Source: Armatimonadota bacterium
GTDB taxonomy: Bacteria; Armatimonadota; Fimbriimonadia; Fimbriimonadales; Fimbriimonadaceae
NCBI GenBank assembly: GCA_027451905.1
Contig: DAIDHV010000001.1
Coordinates: forward strand, 1-38,665
Length of the DNA: 38,665 bases
Direction: 5' to 3'
Part shown: positions 14,352-28,776 of the stretch, in pieces
How positions within the stretch are numbered: position 1 is the stretch's first letter
Layout of the letters: every line of letters starts with the position of its first letter
Made by a program: the position numbers and the translations under genes
The notes under the pieces: model-generated
What the model was told of the DNA's origin: nothing
The model's input: the letters and a program-made list of their open reading frames with translations, nothing else
Databases searched by the model: none

Positions 14352-14629
14352 ACTTTCCATATTTCCAGCCGTTCTTTTTTGATAAGGTAGCGTCAGATGG
14401 TCTTCTTCTTGCTTGGAAGATCCTTTCCCTTCAGTGAAGGATTCTTCATTTTCCGGACCCTCCATACAATCGGGTCCATCTTCCTCTTCGGAGTTGGCAC
14501 AAGACGGGCAACGGCGTTTGCCTAGAAAGAATCCTGGCAACTCACAAGCACAAAAAGTTCTTATAATCGTCAAAATCAGCTAGTAAAGATACCAGTTGTT
14601 TGTAAGTTTTATACCTTGAACTTACATTT
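14352..14629. other. Intergenic region with a doubtful antisense Cys-rich frame
   Basis: No convincing gene. On the minus strand a frame open from 14573 to 14172 begins with a TTG codon and encodes CxC...CPSC near its start, then an acidic Glu/Asp-rich stretch, and runs on through the mscL terminator into mscL antisense. It has no Shine-Dalgarno and an in-frame stop lies three codons upstream. It could be a small zinc-ribbon protein or chance. Confidence 0.3.
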
Positions 14630-14652
14630 CGTGTTACAATGCGATTGCCCAC
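14630..14652 (+). promoter_or_regulatory. Shared upstream element with extended -10, first PEP-CTERM gene
   Basis: CGTGTTACAATGCGATTGCC here is almost the same as the block at 16578-16600 upstream of the third PEP-CTERM gene. TGT-TACAAT reads as an extended -10 (TGn plus 5 of 6 consensus bases). No good -35 was seen at 17 bp. The predicted leader is about 25-30 nt. Confidence 0.5.
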
Positions 14653-14672
14653 TAAGGGGGGTTGAAAAGATC

Positions 14673-15308
14673 ATGAAAAAAATTCTTGTAATGTCTATCG
14701 TTACTGTCGCTTCTCTAACTTTTGGACGAAGCGCCTTCGCTCAACAAGTAGCCTTTAACAATTTTGGTCCTGGTATGACCTACGATAACAGTATTGGCTG
14801 GGATGTTTTTGGGACCAACTCGGGATTTGGCTATTTTGAAACAGCGATGGAGTTCCAATCTGCAACCACCGGAAGTTTAGATAGTATCACTAGCGCATTC
14901 TTCCAGGTTTTTAATTCGGGCAACATCACAGTTAATTTGTACGCGGATAACGGATCCGGTGCCTTTGGATCACTTTTGTATAGCGCAACCGAGAACATCC
15001 CGAGTGGCTCCGGAAACATTGTCACTTCAACAAATGCCAACCCCGCCATCACATTAACGGCTGGCCAAAACTATTGGGTTGACTATGCGGCAAATGTGGA
15101 TACAACGGTTGGAGTCGCATGGTACTTTGACGCTGGTCCAACTTCAACTCAAAACGTGGTGCAGTTTACTTCTCCGGGCGGCACTCCAGTAACTAGAAGT
15201 GGTGATGGCTCCCTCGAGGTGACCACTCAGTCAGTCCCTGAGCCTGCAAGCTTTGCTGCGTTAGGGCTGGGCTTGGTTGGCCTCATTAGACGGCGAAAAA
15301 CTCATTAA
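14673..15308 (+). CDS. PEP-CTERM protein 1, choice-of-anchor R-like domain
   Basis: A 211-residue secreted protein. A signal peptide (about 1-23, ending in SAFA) precedes the mature start QQVAFNNFGPGMTYD. The body is a beta-rich Gly/Ser/Thr domain of the choice-of-anchor R type, with SITSAFFQV, NITVNLYADNGSGAFGSLLYS and LTAGQNYWVDYA. The C-terminus is a PEP-CTERM sorting signal: VPEPAS, a hydrophobic helix, then RRRKTH. Exosortase normally recognises this tag and moves the protein to the surface or exopolysaccharide. The ATG at 14673 is chosen over the upstream in-frame start at 14616 because it begins the signal peptide and follows a G-rich ribosome site (AAGGGGGG). Two paralogues follow on the same strand. 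Confidence 0.9.
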   Translation: MKKILVMSIVTVASLTFGRSAFAQQVAFNNFGPGMTYDNSIGWDVFGTNSGFGYFETAMEFQSATTGSLDSITSAFFQVFNSGNITVNLYADNGSGAFGSLLYSATENIPSGSGNIVTSTNANPAITLTAGQNYWVDYAANVDTTVGVAWYFDAGPTSTQNVVQFTSPGGTPVTRSGDGSLEVTTQSVPEPASFAALGLGLVGLIRRRKTH

Positions 15309-15339
15309 TTTTCGGGTTTAGCATTTTCGATAGCTAAAC

Positions 15340-15405
15340 GAGGCACCAGCTGCGACTCCTGCCGACATCGTTCTTTTAACCGAAATTCGAGACTTACTAA
15401 AGAAA
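15340..15405 (+). pseudogene. Relic of the 3' end of a second mscL copy
   Basis: Bases 15352-15405 match the last 54 coding bases of mscL (14246-14299) without gaps, with about five or six differences. They translate to [21 protein letters not shown] against [21 protein letters not shown] in MscL. A stop codon (TAG, 15331-15333) precedes the match in frame; the mscL stop position reads CAG and the frame runs on to TGA at 15475-15477. No membrane-spanning part of the channel is present. It is too short to be a channel and is best read as the surviving tail of a duplicated mscL. Confidence 0.75.
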
Positions 15406-15407
15406 CA

Positions 15408-15436
15408 GGAATCTGTTGAGCAACTCAACAGGTTCC
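15408..15436 (+). terminator. Hairpin after the mscL relic
   Basis: A 13-bp stem with one G-T wobble (15408-15420 with 15424-15436; core CTGTTGAG/CTCAACAG) and a 3-nt loop, starting right after the relic reading frame match. It may be the terminator of the lost mscL copy or serve the first PEP-CTERM gene. Confidence 0.55.
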
Positions 15437-15492
15437 TATTTCGGCTTGAGCCGGAAAGCGTTGCCAAGGTTCTGTGAATCTGGGAAAAAGGG

Positions 15493-15563
15493 GAAACTGC
15501 CTGATTTCCGCGCAAATCTGGCGGTTTTTCTGAACAACTGCCATGGATCGGCAATTGTTCAAC
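15493..15563 (+). repeat. Two-hairpin structured repeat, copy 1
   Basis: A 71-nt element that aligns without gaps to 23530-23600 (about 55 of 71 identical by eye). Hairpin A uses 15493-15507 and 15514-15528 with a 6-nt loop; hairpin B uses GAACAACTGCC (15532-15542) and GGCAATTGTTC (15550-15560) around the invariant loop ATGGATC. Each stem has one mismatch in this copy. It sits between the mscL relic and a T-rich terminator. Confidence 0.75.
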
Positions 15564-15596
15564 ATTCACATAGTTTACGTTTTTGTGATCACAAGA

Positions 15597-15640
15597 ATAA
15601 AAGGCAGATAGCAAAAGGTTGTCTGCCTTTTATCCTTGTT
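15597..15640 (+). terminator. Intrinsic terminator before the second PEP-CTERM gene
   Basis: A perfect 12-bp stem, ATAAAAGGCAGA (15597-15608) with TCTGCCTTTTAT (15622-15633), 13-nt loop, followed by a T-rich tract (TTGTTTTTTAT). It would also work in reverse because of the A-rich left flank. Confidence 0.75.
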
Positions 15641-15777
15641 TTTTATCTCTTTTCCATTATCAAACCTGACCGTTTTCTACCACAACCTCTAAAAAAATAT
15701 CTTGTTACAAACATTTGTCTTATTTCAATGTAGTTGCGTTAATATATTTATGACCATTAAATTTGGGGTTGCAAAAA

Positions 15778-16401
15778 GTGAAACACATTGTCTTTGGAAT
15801 TGGAATCTTTTGCATTGCCGCCGTCGCATCGGCTGACACCGCATTCAACAATTTTGGGCCAAGCATGGCATACAACACTCTTCATGGAGACCGAGTTTCT
15901 GGCTCCGGCTCTTCAAATGGCTACATTGAAACTGCCATGCAATTTACATCCCTTGTCAGCGGCTCTCTAGAGTCTATAACGACTGGCTTGGTTGACTTAA
16001 GCACGAGCGGCATGGGAGACTCAATGACCTTAAACCTCTACACGGATAATGGAAGCAATGGATTTGGCGCGTTGCTCTATTCTGATCACTATGACCCTGG
16101 CCTCAGTATGACTTCGCAGTTATCCAGTGTCATGAACTCAAACGCGCTCATAACGCTCACGGCTGGCCAAAAGTATTGGGTCGATATGGTGGCGGATACA
16201 GACACCAATATTGGGTGGAACTATGACTACCAAAACACCGCTAATCAGCTTGTTTATCAATGGAGCACTCCGGGAGGAACTCCAAGGCAAGGGTCTACCG
16301 ATGTTTCTCTGCAAGTCACAACTCAGTCTGTCCCTGAGCCAGCCAGCATTGCTGCTCTTGGGTTAGGGCTCATTGGCTTGCTAAAGGGAAAGCGATTTTA
16401 G
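15778..16401 (+). CDS. PEP-CTERM protein 2, choice-of-anchor R-like domain
   Basis: A 207-residue paralogue of the first PEP-CTERM protein and the most diverged of the three. A signal peptide (about 1-19, ending in VASA) is followed by DTAFNNFGPSMAYN, the same beta-rich domain (SITTGLVDL, MTLNLYTDNGSNGFGALLYS, LTAGQKYWVDM) and the C-terminal VPEPAS, hydrophobic helix and KGKRF tail. The GTG at 15778 is chosen because MKHI aligns with the MKKI start of paralogue 1 and both follow a GGGGTTG-rich ribosome site; an in-frame TTG at 15763 is the alternative. A TGTTACAAA block 67 bp upstream resembles the promoter element of the paralogues. Confidence 0.87.
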   Translation: MKHIVFGIGIFCIAAVASADTAFNNFGPSMAYNTLHGDRVSGSGSSNGYIETAMQFTSLVSGSLESITTGLVDLSTSGMGDSMTLNLYTDNGSNGFGALLYSDHYDPGLSMTSQLSSVMNSNALITLTAGQKYWVDMVADTDTNIGWNYDYQNTANQLVYQWSTPGGTPRQGSTDVSLQVTTQSVPEPASIAALGLGLIGLLKGKRF

Positions 16402-16438
16402 TATTGCGCTTGAATTGCATGTGGGAAATGGTGAAGAA

Positions 16439-16470
16439 TTGTTGGAAGGTGTTCTGAGCCATGCCAACAA
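16439..16470 (+). terminator. Weak hairpin after the second PEP-CTERM gene
   Basis: TTGTTGG (16439-16445) and CCAACAA (16464-16470) can form a 7-bp stem with an 18-nt loop. There is no T tract, so termination here is only a possibility. Confidence 0.3.
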
Positions 16471-16577
16471 TCCGGGGTTGCAGGGTTTTTCGACGGAGTC
16501 ATAAGCCAGCACTTTTTTGGCTATGGAGGGCCAAAAGAGTTAAGATTTCTGCAATATCTCACTTATTTTCTTGGAAC

Positions 16578-16600
16578 CGTGTTACAATGTGCTTGCCACT
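16578..16600 (+). promoter_or_regulatory. Shared upstream element with extended -10, third PEP-CTERM gene
   Basis: CGTGTTACAATGTGCTTGCC matches the element at 14630-14652 at all but about two positions. TGT-TACAAT is an extended -10 candidate. The start codon is 21 bp downstream with GAGG as ribosome site. Confidence 0.5.
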
Positions 16601-16620
16601 ATAGTGCGGTATGAGGAAAA

Positions 16621-17256
16621 ATGAGAGCCTTCGTCTTTGGGCCGGTCGCTGTTTTTGCACTTGTTGGGTTGAGAACCATTGCTAATGCCCAGCAAGATGC
16701 GTTTAACAATTTTGGACCTGATCGGGCCTATGATAGAAGTCAGATTTGGTCTATTTATGGAAGCGGGGCACCAGGCGGTTATGTTGAAACGGCGATGGAG
16801 TTCCAATCCGCGACGACAGGAACACTTGATACCATTACCAGTGTCTTTCTTGAGCAGTATCAAGCCGGAAACATCACGGTTAATATTTATAAGGATAACG
16901 GCTCAGGTGCCTTTGGATCACTTCTATATAGCTCGGTTGATGCCATACCTACGCACTTCAACAACTTCGTCACCTTTACAAACTCTAACTCTTCAATCAA
17001 GCTAAACGCTGGTCAGAATTATTGGATTGACTATGCTGCCAATGTCGACCCAACCGTATCGGTCGGTTGGTACTTTGATTGGAATGGAACCCATAATCAG
17101 AAAGTGGTTCAATTCACCTCTCCGGGCGGCACTCCAATTGCTAGAAGTGGTGACGGCTCCCTTGAGGTGACCACTCAGTCAGTCCCTGAGCCTGCAAGCA
17201 TTGCTGCCCTTGGACTGAGTTTGATCGGCTTAATGAGGCTCCGCAAAAGTCACTAA
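16621..17256 (+). CDS. PEP-CTERM protein 3, choice-of-anchor R-like domain
   Basis: A 211-residue paralogue closest to the first copy. A signal peptide (about 1-23, ending in IANA) precedes QQDAFNNFGPDRAYD. The body carries TITSVFLEQ, NITVNIYKDNGSGAFGSLLYS and LNAGQNYWIDYAAN, and the C-terminus is VPEPAS, a hydrophobic helix and RLRKSH. The last stretch of coding sequence (SPGGTP to PEPAS) differs from the first copy at only about five bases, much less than the rest of the gene, which suggests recent gene conversion or selection on the sorting tag region. A strong terminator follows. No exosortase gene is present in the window, so sorting must rely on one elsewhere. Confidence 0.9.
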   Translation: MRAFVFGPVAVFALVGLRTIANAQQDAFNNFGPDRAYDRSQIWSIYGSGAPGGYVETAMEFQSATTGTLDTITSVFLEQYQAGNITVNIYKDNGSGAFGSLLYSSVDAIPTHFNNFVTFTNSNSSIKLNAGQNYWIDYAANVDPTVSVGWYFDWNGTHNQKVVQFTSPGGTPIARSGDGSLEVTTQSVPEPASIAALGLSLIGLMRLRKSH

Positions 17257-18029: not shown

Positions 18030-18320
18030 ATGATGAGTCTCCATGGTGTTGACGTGTACCTGAACACGTCAGAATTTCCCAATCTTCCTCAAGAAGTCGG
18101 CAGCTTTTCTTTAATTTTTGTGGCAAGTCGAGGCACCCGAATGAAGCCGGGGGCAACCGATATTGCCTGGCCGCAGTGCCGATACTTTAGCGAAACCGAA
18201 GTCACCGATCAAGACATCGAGAACCTTGTTGCCAAGATCAATGCGGCAGGATTTCAGTGGACCAAGTGCCAAAAATTATTCAAAATCGACGGCGTTAATG
18301 CCTTTTCACAACCATATTAG
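18030..18320 (+). CDS. Stand-alone IDH C-terminal domain protein
   Basis: A 96-residue protein homologous to the C-terminal extension (about residues 390-495) of the fused IDH at 27289-28776. Shared blocks are G[VI]D[VI][YF][LI] at the start, then RGxxxxP (SRGTRMKP against NRGVKVWP), WxxCR[YF] (WPQCRYF against WRCRF), and K..LF..DG...FS near the end. This extension is known from Thermus-type IDHs but there it is fused to the core. Here it is a separate gene 9 bp upstream of an IDH core that lacks the extension, which implies two subunits of one enzyme. There is no signal peptide or membrane segment. Start ATG at 18030 or the adjacent ATG at 18033; no strong ribosome site. Confidence 0.8.
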   Translation: MMSLHGVDVYLNTSEFPNLPQEVGSFSLIFVASRGTRMKPGATDIAWPQCRYFSETEVTDQDIENLVAKINAAGFQWTKCQKLFKIDGVNAFSQPY

Positions 18321-18329
18321 AAAATAAAC

Positions 18330-19331
18330 ATGGCTCATAAAGTCTGCTTAATTAGAGGGGATGGCACTGGTCCCGAACTTGTCAGTGCAGTTGAAACCGT
18401 TTTTCGAGCCGCCAATGTGGCAATCGACTGGGTTGAAGTTGAGGCAGGACTTGCCTGTGTGGAAGCAGGAAAGCCGATCGTCCCCGACGAAACCATCGAA
18501 AAAATAAGAGAAGTTGGAATTGGTCTGAAAGCACCGATGACCACTCCCATCGGCAAAGGATCGGTAAGCCCAAATGTGACTTTAAGGAAGCGCTTGGACC
18601 TATATGCCTGCGTTCGCCCTGTCTTCTCATTGCCGGGTGTTGAAACCCCGTTCAAGAACCTAGACATCGTTATCTTTCGAGAAAATACCGAAGACCTTTA
18701 TGCCCAAATTGAATACATGGCAACAGAAACGGTTGCCCACAGCGTGAAGGTCATCAGTGAATCCGGTTGCGAAAAAATTATTAGGGCCGCGTTTGAATAC
18801 GCTCGGAAAAACGGTAGAAAGAAGGTAGTTGGTGTCCACAAAGCCAACATTATGAAAGTTGCCGATGGGCTCTTCTTAAGGACCTTCAAGCGAATTTCCG
18901 AAGAGTATCCGGATATTGAGTCTTGGGACAACATCGTGGACAACCAGTGCATGCAGCTGGTTACCAAATGGTCCATTTATGACGTCTTGGTGACCCTCAA
19001 CCTTTATGGAGACATCGTTTCTGACCTTGCCGCGGGAATGATGGGCGGCCTTGGAGTCGCTCCTGGCGCCAATTTCGGCACCAATTGCGCTGTTTTCGAA
19101 GCCGTCCATGGCTCAGCCCCTAAGTACACGGGAATGAACAAAGTCAATCCGACTGCTCTTTTGCTCTCGGGAACTCTGATGCTTGACCATCTTGGCGAGA
19201 CAAAGGCAAGGGCCGATATCGAAGGTGCCCTCAAAGCAACCTTGATGAAAGGGGTGAAAACCTACGATCTCGGTGGATCGGCTACCACATCGGGGTTTGC
19301 CGAGGCCATTTGCAGCGAGCTCAAAGGCTAA
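18330..19331 (+). CDS. icd: Isocitrate dehydrogenase core (NADP-type), lacking the C-terminal domain
   Basis: A 333-residue decarboxylating dehydrogenase of the IDH/IPMDH family. Isocitrate-type substrate residues are visible: Ser80 and Asn82 in SVSPNVTLRKRLDLYACVRP, Arg86, Arg96, Arg117 in FRENTEDLY with Tyr124, Lys171 in HKANIMK, and Asp228/Asp232 in NLYGDIVSDLAAG. At the cofactor site HGSAPKYTGMNKVNP has Lys265, Tyr266 and Val272, the positions equal to E. coli Lys344, Tyr345 and Val351, which favour NADP. Tyr312 matches Tyr391, but the Arg395 position is Gly316. The protein ends at the catalytic core; the usual Thermus-type C-terminal domain is instead encoded by the preceding gene. It makes 2-oxoglutarate in the TCA cycle. 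Confidence 0.9.
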   Translation: MAHKVCLIRGDGTGPELVSAVETVFRAANVAIDWVEVEAGLACVEAGKPIVPDETIEKIREVGIGLKAPMTTPIGKGSVSPNVTLRKRLDLYACVRPVFSLPGVETPFKNLDIVIFRENTEDLYAQIEYMATETVAHSVKVISESGCEKIIRAAFEYARKNGRKKVVGVHKANIMKVADGLFLRTFKRISEEYPDIESWDNIVDNQCMQLVTKWSIYDVLVTLNLYGDIVSDLAAGMMGGLGVAPGANFGTNCAVFEAVHGSAPKYTGMNKVNPTALLLSGTLMLDHLGETKARADIEGALKATLMKGVKTYDLGGSATTSGFAEAICSELKG

Positions 19332-26762: not shown

Positions 26763-27226
26763 TCCTTCAGTGTGCCAGATTTCTGAGTGCCATTCTGCAC
26801 AAATGGCCCGTGGCTGATACCTAAATCAGCGGCCCCTGTTGCCACTTCAACAGTTGGCTTAGAATCTATCAAACGGTCTATAGAAAGTTCTCCCGAATGC
26901 AAACACGGCTTGAGTCACCAAAATTGTGTCTCCAGATCTCAATCAAGGCAAAATCCACGCAACACATCGCTTATAAGGCTTGCAAAGAAACCGTCCAGAA
27001 CGCCAAAGCGAGATCAATGGATTACAGGCGATTTACAGTCCCGCAAGTGGCAGACCGTACCCAGTTTGCTCACGGTTGTAGGGGAAATTTGGCCGGTCCA
27101 AATTTTTTGTCTAACCATATTGCTTTTAGAATCCAGGGCTTCAATTTGGGCCAAGGCAATTTTTGAAACAACCCAGGTTCAAAAGTCAAAAATTTGGGTT
27201 ATGGAAAACGCAAAACACTCAACAAA
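26763..27226. other. Long intergenic region upstream of the fused IDH
   Basis: About 465 bp without a supportable gene. A small hairpin (GCTGAT/ATCAGC around 26812-26829) lies near the YncE-like start. Open frames on the plus strand here are short, have no ribosome site and show no domain. The AT content rises sharply toward the IDH promoter. Confidence 0.5.
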
Positions 27227-27301
27227 TTGTAAAAAAGTCACGACAAGCACTATATACGACATTTATTTCGTGTATTATATATCGTGATATGAATGTCGTA
27301 T
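27227..27301 (+). promoter_or_regulatory. AT-rich promoter with repeated CACGA/TCGTG sites upstream of the fused IDH
   Basis: TTGTAA (27227-27232) with CTATAT or TATATA (27250-27256) at 17-18 bp is a candidate promoter; TATTAT near 27273 is a second -10. Half-sites of one type cluster here: CACGACA (27239-27245), ACGACA (27256-27261), TCGTG (27268-27272), TCGTG (27282-27286) and TGTCGT (27295-27300). ATACGACATT (27254-27263) and AATGTCGTAT (27292-27301) form a perfect 10-bp inverted repeat spanning the start codon. Confidence 0.45.
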
Positions 27302-28776
27302 GTTCATCAACCGCATCATCAGCATCCAACCAAAATGAGCTGACTCCTATTGCCATTTCCTATGGTGATGGAATCGGACCGGAAATCATGACAGCAGTGG
27401 TTGACATCCTCAATCAAGCTGGAGCAAAACTTGAATACTGGCCCATAGAAGTGGGTGAAACCGTTTATAACCAGGGCCACAGCTCTGGAATTGCACCCGA
27501 GACATGGCAGAAACTTCAAAAAGCCAAGGTCTTTCTTAAGGCGCCAATAACTACTCCTCAAGGCGGAGGCTTCAAAAGCCTTAACGTTACCATCCGTAAA
27601 ACTTTGGGACTGTATGCCAACGTGCGCCCTTGCGCCTCTTATGCGCCGTTCGTAAAAACCGAGCATCCCCACATGAACGTCGTGGTGATCAGAGAAAATG
27701 AAGAAGACCTGTATGCAGGAATCGAGCATCGGCAAACCGAGCAGGTCTATCAGTGTCTTAAGCTCATTACCAAGCCCGGTTGCGAACGAATTTGCAGGTA
27801 CGCCTTTGAGTATGCACGGGCCAACGGTCGCAAAAAGGTGACATGCATGACCAAAGACAACATCATGAAGCTTACGGATGGTCTTTTCCATAAAGTCTTT
27901 GATGAAATCGGATCGGACTATCCCGAAATCCAAAAAGAACATCGCATTATCGACATCGGCATGGCCCAAGTTGCGTGCCGACCTGAATTGTTCGACGTGA
28001 TTGTTACCCCAAATCTATACGGAGACATTCTTTCTGATGTAGCGGCGGAGGTTGCCGGATCTGTAGGCTTGGCACCTTCCAGCAATATTGGCGATCATTG
28101 CGCTATGTTCGAGGCGATCCATGGCAGTGCGCCAGATATTGCCGGCCAAAATATTGCTAACCCTTCTGGACTTCTATTGGCAGCAGTTATGATGTTAGTG
28201 CATGTGGGTCAACCAGAAGTCGCTTCTGCCATCCACAATGCTTGGCTTTGCACAATTGAAGATGGAATTCACACCAAAGACATTTATCAGCTTGGCATCA
28301 GCAAAGAGCTGGTTGGAACCCGAGAGTTTGGAAACGCTGTTTGCCAAAGACTTGGTAGCATTCCTAAGCAGTTCAGCACGATTACCTATACAGAAGTTAG
28401 CCCCCTTCAATCTGAGCCGATCCACGCAAGCCAAACTCGACAAAAAAAGGAACTTGTGGGGATTGACATTTTTATTGACTGGACCAGAACAGTTGATGAA
28501 CTGGCAATGCGTCTGCAATCTGCAGAAACTCAGCACATGAAGCTCCAGATGATTACCAATCGCGGCGTCAAGGTATGGCCAAACGGATTTCCAGAAACCT
28601 TCGTGACGGATCACTGGCGGTGCCGATTTATTTCTGATCCGCAATTAGAAGTGCCTAAACAGGAGCTTCAAGACATTATGGGAAACTTGCTTAAAGCTGA
28701 ACTTGATTTTATCAAGTCAGAAACTTTGTGCTTGTTCGATGGCCAGCCAGGCTTCTCGCTTGGCCAGGGTCAGTAG
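27289..28776 (+). CDS. icd: Isocitrate dehydrogenase (NAD-type) with fused C-terminal domain
   Basis: A 495-residue Thermus-type IDH. Catalytic core (about 18-360): Ser97 and Asn99 in FKSLNVTIRKTLGLYANVRP, Arg103, Arg113, VIRENEEDLYAGIEH, Lys189 in CMTKDNIMK, Asp246/Asp250 in NLYGDILSDVAAE. The cofactor segment HGSAPDIAGQNIANP has Asp283, Ile284 and Ala290, with Lys330 later; these match the residues that switch E. coli IDH to NAD (Asp344, Ile345, Ala351, Lys391). A linker leads to the C-terminal domain (about 390-495: GIDIFIDW, NRGVKVWP, HWRCRF, LFDGQPGFSLGQG). ATG at 27289 follows an AT-rich promoter without a ribosome site, so a leaderless or near-leaderless mRNA is possible. Confidence 0.93.
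   Translation: MNVVCSSTASSASNQNELTPIAISYGDGIGPEIMTAVVDILNQAGAKLEYWPIEVGETVYNQGHSSGIAPETWQKLQKAKVFLKAPITTPQGGGFKSLNVTIRKTLGLYANVRPCASYAPFVKTEHPHMNVVVIRENEEDLYAGIEHRQTEQVYQCLKLITKPGCERICRYAFEYARANGRKKVTCMTKDNIMKLTDGLFHKVFDEIGSDYPEIQKEHRIIDIGMAQVACRPELFDVIVTPNLYGDILSDVAAEVAGSVGLAPSSNIGDHCAMFEAIHGSAPDIAGQNIANPSGLLLAAVMMLVHVGQPEVASAIHNAWLCTIEDGIHTKDIYQLGISKELVGTREFGNAVCQRLGSIPKQFSTITYTEVSPLQSEPIHASQTRQKKELVGIDIFIDWTRTVDELAMRLQSAETQHMKLQMITNRGVKVWPNGFPETFVTDHWRCRFISDPQLEVPKQELQDIMGNLLKAELDFIKSETLCLFDGQPGFSLGQGQ

Follow-up and report, generated by a model that had tools for sequence, protein, structure and literature searches.

A stand-alone isocitrate dehydrogenase C-terminal domain encoded upstream of its core in Armatimonadota: a proposed two-subunit enzyme

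Isocitrate dehydrogenases related to the locus

The isocitrate dehydrogenase (IDH) of Thermus thermophilus (structure 2d1c; families NF006673 and TIGR02924) is one chain of ~495 amino acids that ends in a ferredoxin-like C-terminal domain. This enzyme has been placed in 'subfamily IV'. In that group, ~100 additional residues build a larger clasp-like structure on top of the dimer clasp, and without these residues the subfamily IV enzymes resemble those of subfamily III (PMC3521221). Mitochondrial and bacterial NAD-dependent IDHs (IDH3-like, TIGR00175; PDB 6lky and 6m3s) have no associated clasp domain. The canonical bacterial NADP-dependent enzyme Icd (TIGR00183) carries a Lys-Tyr-Val coenzyme signature; Lys-Tyr(-Val) marks NADP specificity, whereas Asp-Ile(-Ala) marks use of NAD (PMC5397045).

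Here we describe a locus in a 38,665-nucleotide stretch of an Armatimonadota genome (contig DAIDHV010000001.1, positions 1 to 38,665; the whole stretch is referred to as the window). The locus resembles the Thermus thermophilus enzyme in core fold, in the ferredoxin-like C-terminal domain and in the NADP-type Lys-Tyr signature, but it encodes two polypeptides, with the domain gene first. A fused Thermus-type IDH is encoded further downstream in the window and served as comparator. The relevant features, all on the forward strand, are:

18030..18320 (+), free small subunit gene, 96 aa (PF18324; AlphaFold2 model; homologues in related genomes)
18306..18317 (+), C-terminal S-Q-P-Y of the small protein (motif comparison of free and fused copies)
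18318..18329 (+), TAG stop codon plus 9-bp intergenic gap; small and core ORFs share one frame in the window
18330..19331 (+), catalytic core subunit gene, 333 aa, Iso_dh fold (PF00180, 323 bits)
18567..18587 (+), S-P-N-V-T-L-R isocitrate-binding segment (S80, N82, R86), invariant in 18 aligned split cores
18708..18746 (+), core clasp segment, residues 127-139, proposed docking site (clasp position of PMC3521221 mapped by alignment)
19122..19127 (+), Lys265-Tyr266, NADP signature equivalent to E. coli K344/Y345 (alignment and the rule of PMC5397045)
27289..28776 (+), fused Thermus-type IDH, 495 aa, comparator outside the pair (NF006673, 773 bits; TIGR02924, 713 bits)
28447..28773 (+), C-terminal domain of the fused IDH, comparator (PF18324, 142 bits)

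The original prediction, made from the sequence of the window, had placed a separate domain gene 9 bp upstream of an IDH core, and its coordinates were exact. Its statement that the extension is known as a fused C-terminal part of Thermus-type IDHs likewise agrees with 2d1c and PMC3521221. Searches of the open-access literature on split IDHs, on the domain family PF18324, on IDH subunits of Nitrospira or Armatimonadota and on gene fission retrieved no earlier description of a split IDH, nor one of the Nitrospirota form presented below.

The small protein and its core

The small ORF comprises 96 codons from an ATG start to a TAG stop, and a second ATG at 18033 may be an alternative start. Its product is matched by Pfam family PF18324 (Isocitrate_DH_C_bact) with 38.5 bits (E 1.3e-9, cut-off 25), the match spanning residues 4-94 of 96 and profile positions 3-106 of 110, and by no other Pfam family. 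Among solved structures, the sole convincing sequence match is the C-terminal domain of 2d1c. An AlphaFold2 model, built from a 10-sequence alignment of the window's protein and related loci, reached a mean pLDDT of 93.9 and a pTM of 0.85. Its best structural match is again 2d1c (residues 386-493; Z 13.1, rmsd 2.2, 95 residues aligned), while the next chains, with Z ~7.0, are generic ferredoxin-like folds; Foldseek retrieved 2d1c at 3.8e-6 and no other match below 0.001. S6, ACT, PII and HMA proteins were considered as relatives and rejected, as these other ferredoxin-like folds scored Z 5-7 only. Thus, by profile and fold, the 96-residue protein is a stand-alone IDH C-terminal (second clasp) domain, as originally predicted. 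Homology to the C-terminal part of the window's fused IDH had been argued from shared motifs. The pairwise match is weak (26% identity, BLASTP E 0.010), and for two of the motifs cited the alignment is not exact (WPQCRY with HWRCRF, and LFKIDG with LCLFDG); the homology stands on profile and structure. A different motif sets free and fused copies apart: the very C-terminus S-x-[P/A]-Y is common to the intact free copies, one fragment cut off at a contig end excepted, and missing from the fused ones.

Purifying selection acts on the small gene, though less tightly than on the core gene (pN/pS 0.34-0.46 versus 0.13-0.21). The small protein also evolves faster, mean identities being 50% among small proteins and 75% among cores, and several of its polar residues are invariant. 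The window's own copy is unusually divergent, with a 4-residue deletion, loss of S-N before R-G and a long branch; the adjacent core shows no such divergence. The genome with this divergent copy also carries the fused NAD-type IDH.

The core was expected to stop where the C-terminal domain would begin, and indeed the PF00180 profile is matched end to end, with protein and profile stopping together and no C-terminal domain following. The core scored below the cut-offs of four IDH equivalog families (NF006673, 389 versus 509 bits; TIGR02924, 323 versus 561; TIGR00175, 358 versus 432; TIGR00183, 266 versus 567). Its best matches among solved structures are IDH3-like enzymes (6lky, 6m3s). It belongs to another subfamily than Icd, with which it shares the presumed reaction and the NADP signature. 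Thermus-type enzymes combine the two domains in a single chain of 480-500 residues, whereas separate ORFs of 96 and 333 amino acids are found here. Residues S80, N82, R86, R96, R117 and Y124 are invariant in 18 aligned split cores; the roles of the isocitrate-binding residues have been described (PMC3521221). Judged from its sequence, the core is an IDH of the Iso_dh superfamily with intact isocitrate-binding residues. At the coenzyme position, 27 of the 32 Armatimonadota pairs carry Lys-Tyr, two Arg-Tyr, two Pro-Leu and one Asp-Ile, and Lys-Tyr is also found in the split loci of Bipolaricaulota and Nitrospirota. All Pro-Leu and Asp-Ile cores belong to a single genus (g9), and both g9 genomes tested possess a type II NADP-IDH in addition.

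The fused IDH of the window contains both domains, and its core is 45% identical to the split core. Unlike the pair, it is a single chain with the Asp-Ile (NAD) signature. Its longest ORF begins at a TTG codon at 27163; the ATG at 27289 is the likely start. A third IDH-like protein is encoded elsewhere in the same genome (G000:C3:251031-252008, locus L222; core 53% identical); it has the Asp-Ile (NAD) signature and no C-terminal domain, and its type occurs in most members of the family. Genomes of a sister family, f2 (e.g. L045-L051, L013-L025), encode two fused IDHs each, one with Lys-Tyr (NADP) and one with Asp-Ile (NAD), and no icd.

Distribution, history and relation to icd

A free domain was detected in 32 genomes of the window's phylum, with scores of 135-168 bits against the small-protein alignment as compared to at most 85 for fused copies. 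In every one of these genomes the small gene is followed directly, on the same strand, by a core gene of ~333 codons, mostly at a distance of 1-60 bp and of 520 bp at maximum. Hence, the order noted in the window, domain before core, holds in 32/32 genomes, and adjacency of the two genes is conserved in these genomes as well as in 30/30 Nitrospirota loci. The 520-bp gap, in genome G017, contains an ORF for a four-helix-bundle-like protein of 170 aa (L226:3157-3669 (-); core MAKTFRELKVWQLAV...). In another genome (G027, L043:1075-1986 (-)), the frame of the small gene is open for 303 codons with homology only from residue 204 onwards, and the part upstream is probably a chance open frame.

A survey of named genomes with the core alignment, whose counts are lower bounds, extended the distribution to other phyla. 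Among the matches listed, a Candidatus Bipolaricaulota MAG (L082; core 66% identical) and Chthonomonas sp. UBA2387 have the small gene followed by the core, the latter genome being possibly identical, or close, to one of the survey genomes. Chthonomonas sp. UBA2387 also encodes an IDH without the C-terminal domain. In the core tree, this protein clusters with its counterparts from the window's genome and family, which points to Armatimonadota as the probable phylum of the window. In Nitrospirota, the free domain is present in 37 of 246 sampled genomes. These loci (L106, L118, L126, L192-L221) likewise encode a free domain beside a core that lacks it and form the sister clade in both trees, but in all 30 loci retrieved the core precedes the small gene. 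Moreover, their small proteins differ from that of the window by an extra N-terminal stretch of ~15-20 residues, which is linker-like and possibly derives from the former linker.

The core tree places all split cores in a single clade (SH-aLRT 87), divided into Nitrospirota on the one side and Bipolaricaulota with Armatimonadota on the other. The split small proteins are united as well in the domain tree (97/98), and the three groups branch as in the core tree. Since both trees unite all split pairs, one gene separation and one change of gene order provide the simplest history. Derivation of the pair from the window's fused IDH was rejected, as the fused copy falls into a distant clade in both trees. 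The split clade sits among cores that have no C-terminal domain. Of 20 genomes that encode such cores, 19 lack any copy of the domain, so that either fission of a fused gene or recruitment of the domain could have given rise to the pair; the linker-like stretch in Nitrospirota favours fission. Taken together, one central enzyme presents a natural series: the fused Thermus type, the split pair of Nitrospirota that retains the original order, and the split pair of Armatimonadota and Bipolaricaulota with the order reversed.

Presence of the pair coincides with absence of icd. The latter gene (TIGR00183, above cut-off) is missing from 31 of the 32 split genomes, whereas each of the 41 family members examined that have no pair gave a match, two of them with fragments only (Fisher p about 1e-19, a statistic that ignores relatedness). 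The swap must have happened repeatedly, because genera g15, g20, g22 and g25 each hold both states. None of the 32 split genomes encodes a monomeric IDH, although two Nitrospirota genomes that have the pair do. In two genomes, G028 and G044, the split core is even the only Iso_dh-family protein at E<=1e-20. The split pair thus seems to replace the usual NADP-dependent IDH. G134 counts against such a replacement as the only split genome found to have icd too. Its canonical icd (G134:C72:2-1677) is cut by the contig end and is encoded on the strand opposite to the split pair, at a distance of about 220 bp. These data suggest that in genomes without icd part of isocitrate dehydrogenase resides in a gene of ~100 codons, which is easily missed or called hypothetical.

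A proposed two-subunit enzyme and its alternatives

It is probable that the two genes specify a single, NADP-dependent IDH and that the small protein serves the core dimer as a second clasp, detached from the core chain. In this enzyme, the 333-residue core would form the catalytic dimer, and the 96-residue protein would contribute, as a separate polypeptide, the second clasp (C2) of the Thermus-type 'subfamily IV' IDHs. Two copies of the small protein would bind on top of the core dimer's clasp and support the core, yielding an A2B2 complex that performs the NADPH-forming step of the Krebs cycle in place of Icd. We infer the physical association, the A2B2 stoichiometry, the stabilising role and the coenzyme preference from the comparisons reported here. 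Core residues 127-139, at the clasp, separate domain-bearing cores from cores without the domain more strongly than nearly any other part of the core (p 0.0003 after entropy correction, within the top three of the 320 segments compared; rank 2 of 56 label permutations), which is suggestive, though only suggestive, of docking of the small protein at this site. The faster evolution of the small protein and the divergent copy in the window count against a two-subunit enzyme. Moreover, many related cores persist without the domain, and the core might therefore not need the small protein. As the domain can be added or omitted as a separate protein, the role of the second clasp becomes directly testable.

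The small protein could also be a reversible regulatory subunit, which would turn the core on or off upon sensing a metabolite rather than bracing it permanently. A gene of its own would permit independent control, the invariant polar residues could be read in this way, and the model bears a weak structural likeness to ACT- and PII-like chains (the ACT domain of homoserine dehydrogenase, SbtB, Lrp; Z 5-6). However, Z values of 5-6 are common for any ferredoxin-like fold, the small protein has no known ligand site, the fused relatives hold the domain permanently, and the close spacing of the two genes, with most gaps below 40 bp, suggests cotranscription. We regard this reading as unlikely. The same low probability applies to the related idea that binding of the detached clasp controls how the only NADP-IDH in these bacteria oligomerises and how active it is, with a metabolite as the possible signal. 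If the small protein did act as a reversible control subunit, splitting off a structural domain would have created a regulator of Krebs-cycle flux.

Much less probable is that the free domain is a relic of gene decay, left over from an ancestral fused IDH and with little or no function. The domain is dispensable in the related cores that lack it, and the window's divergent copy would fit such a fate, but an intact ORF has been kept beside the core across three phyla, and both purifying selection and the invariant C-terminal Tyr specific to split copies speak against decay.

Service to another partner, be it the fused NAD-IDH at 27289 or a stand-alone IDH without the domain, appears slightly less plausible still. 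The original prediction had offered two options, a two-subunit IDH or a free domain that could also associate with the fused enzyme, and we favour the former. A role for the free domain in the fused enzyme is unlikely, because that enzyme already has its own C-terminal domain and because, among the first 61 genomes, only two (G000 and G009) combine a free domain with a Thermus-type fused copy, most genomes with the free domain having no such fused IDH. The third IDH of the window's genome, at C3:251031, would be available as a partner without the domain; however, G028 and G044 retain the small gene even though they encode no Iso_dh-family protein other than the split core at the above threshold.

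Finally, it is extremely improbable that the pair is an artefact, in which a single fused gene was broken by a frameshift or by misassembly or is restored by programmed read-through: the TAG and the 9-bp gap do leave the two ORFs of the window in one frame, but a broken fused gene would yield core then domain instead of the observed domain then core, the arrangement recurs in dozens of genomes, and across 19 pairs the relative frame (0, 1 or 2) and the stop codon (TAG, TAA or TGA) vary. Read-through and frameshift of a single gene were rejected on these grounds.

Upstream of the pair, the window contains three tandem paralogous ORFs of 230, 212 and 211 aa (14616-17256 (+)), each of which ends in a PEP-CTERM sorting signal of the VPEPAS...GL type.
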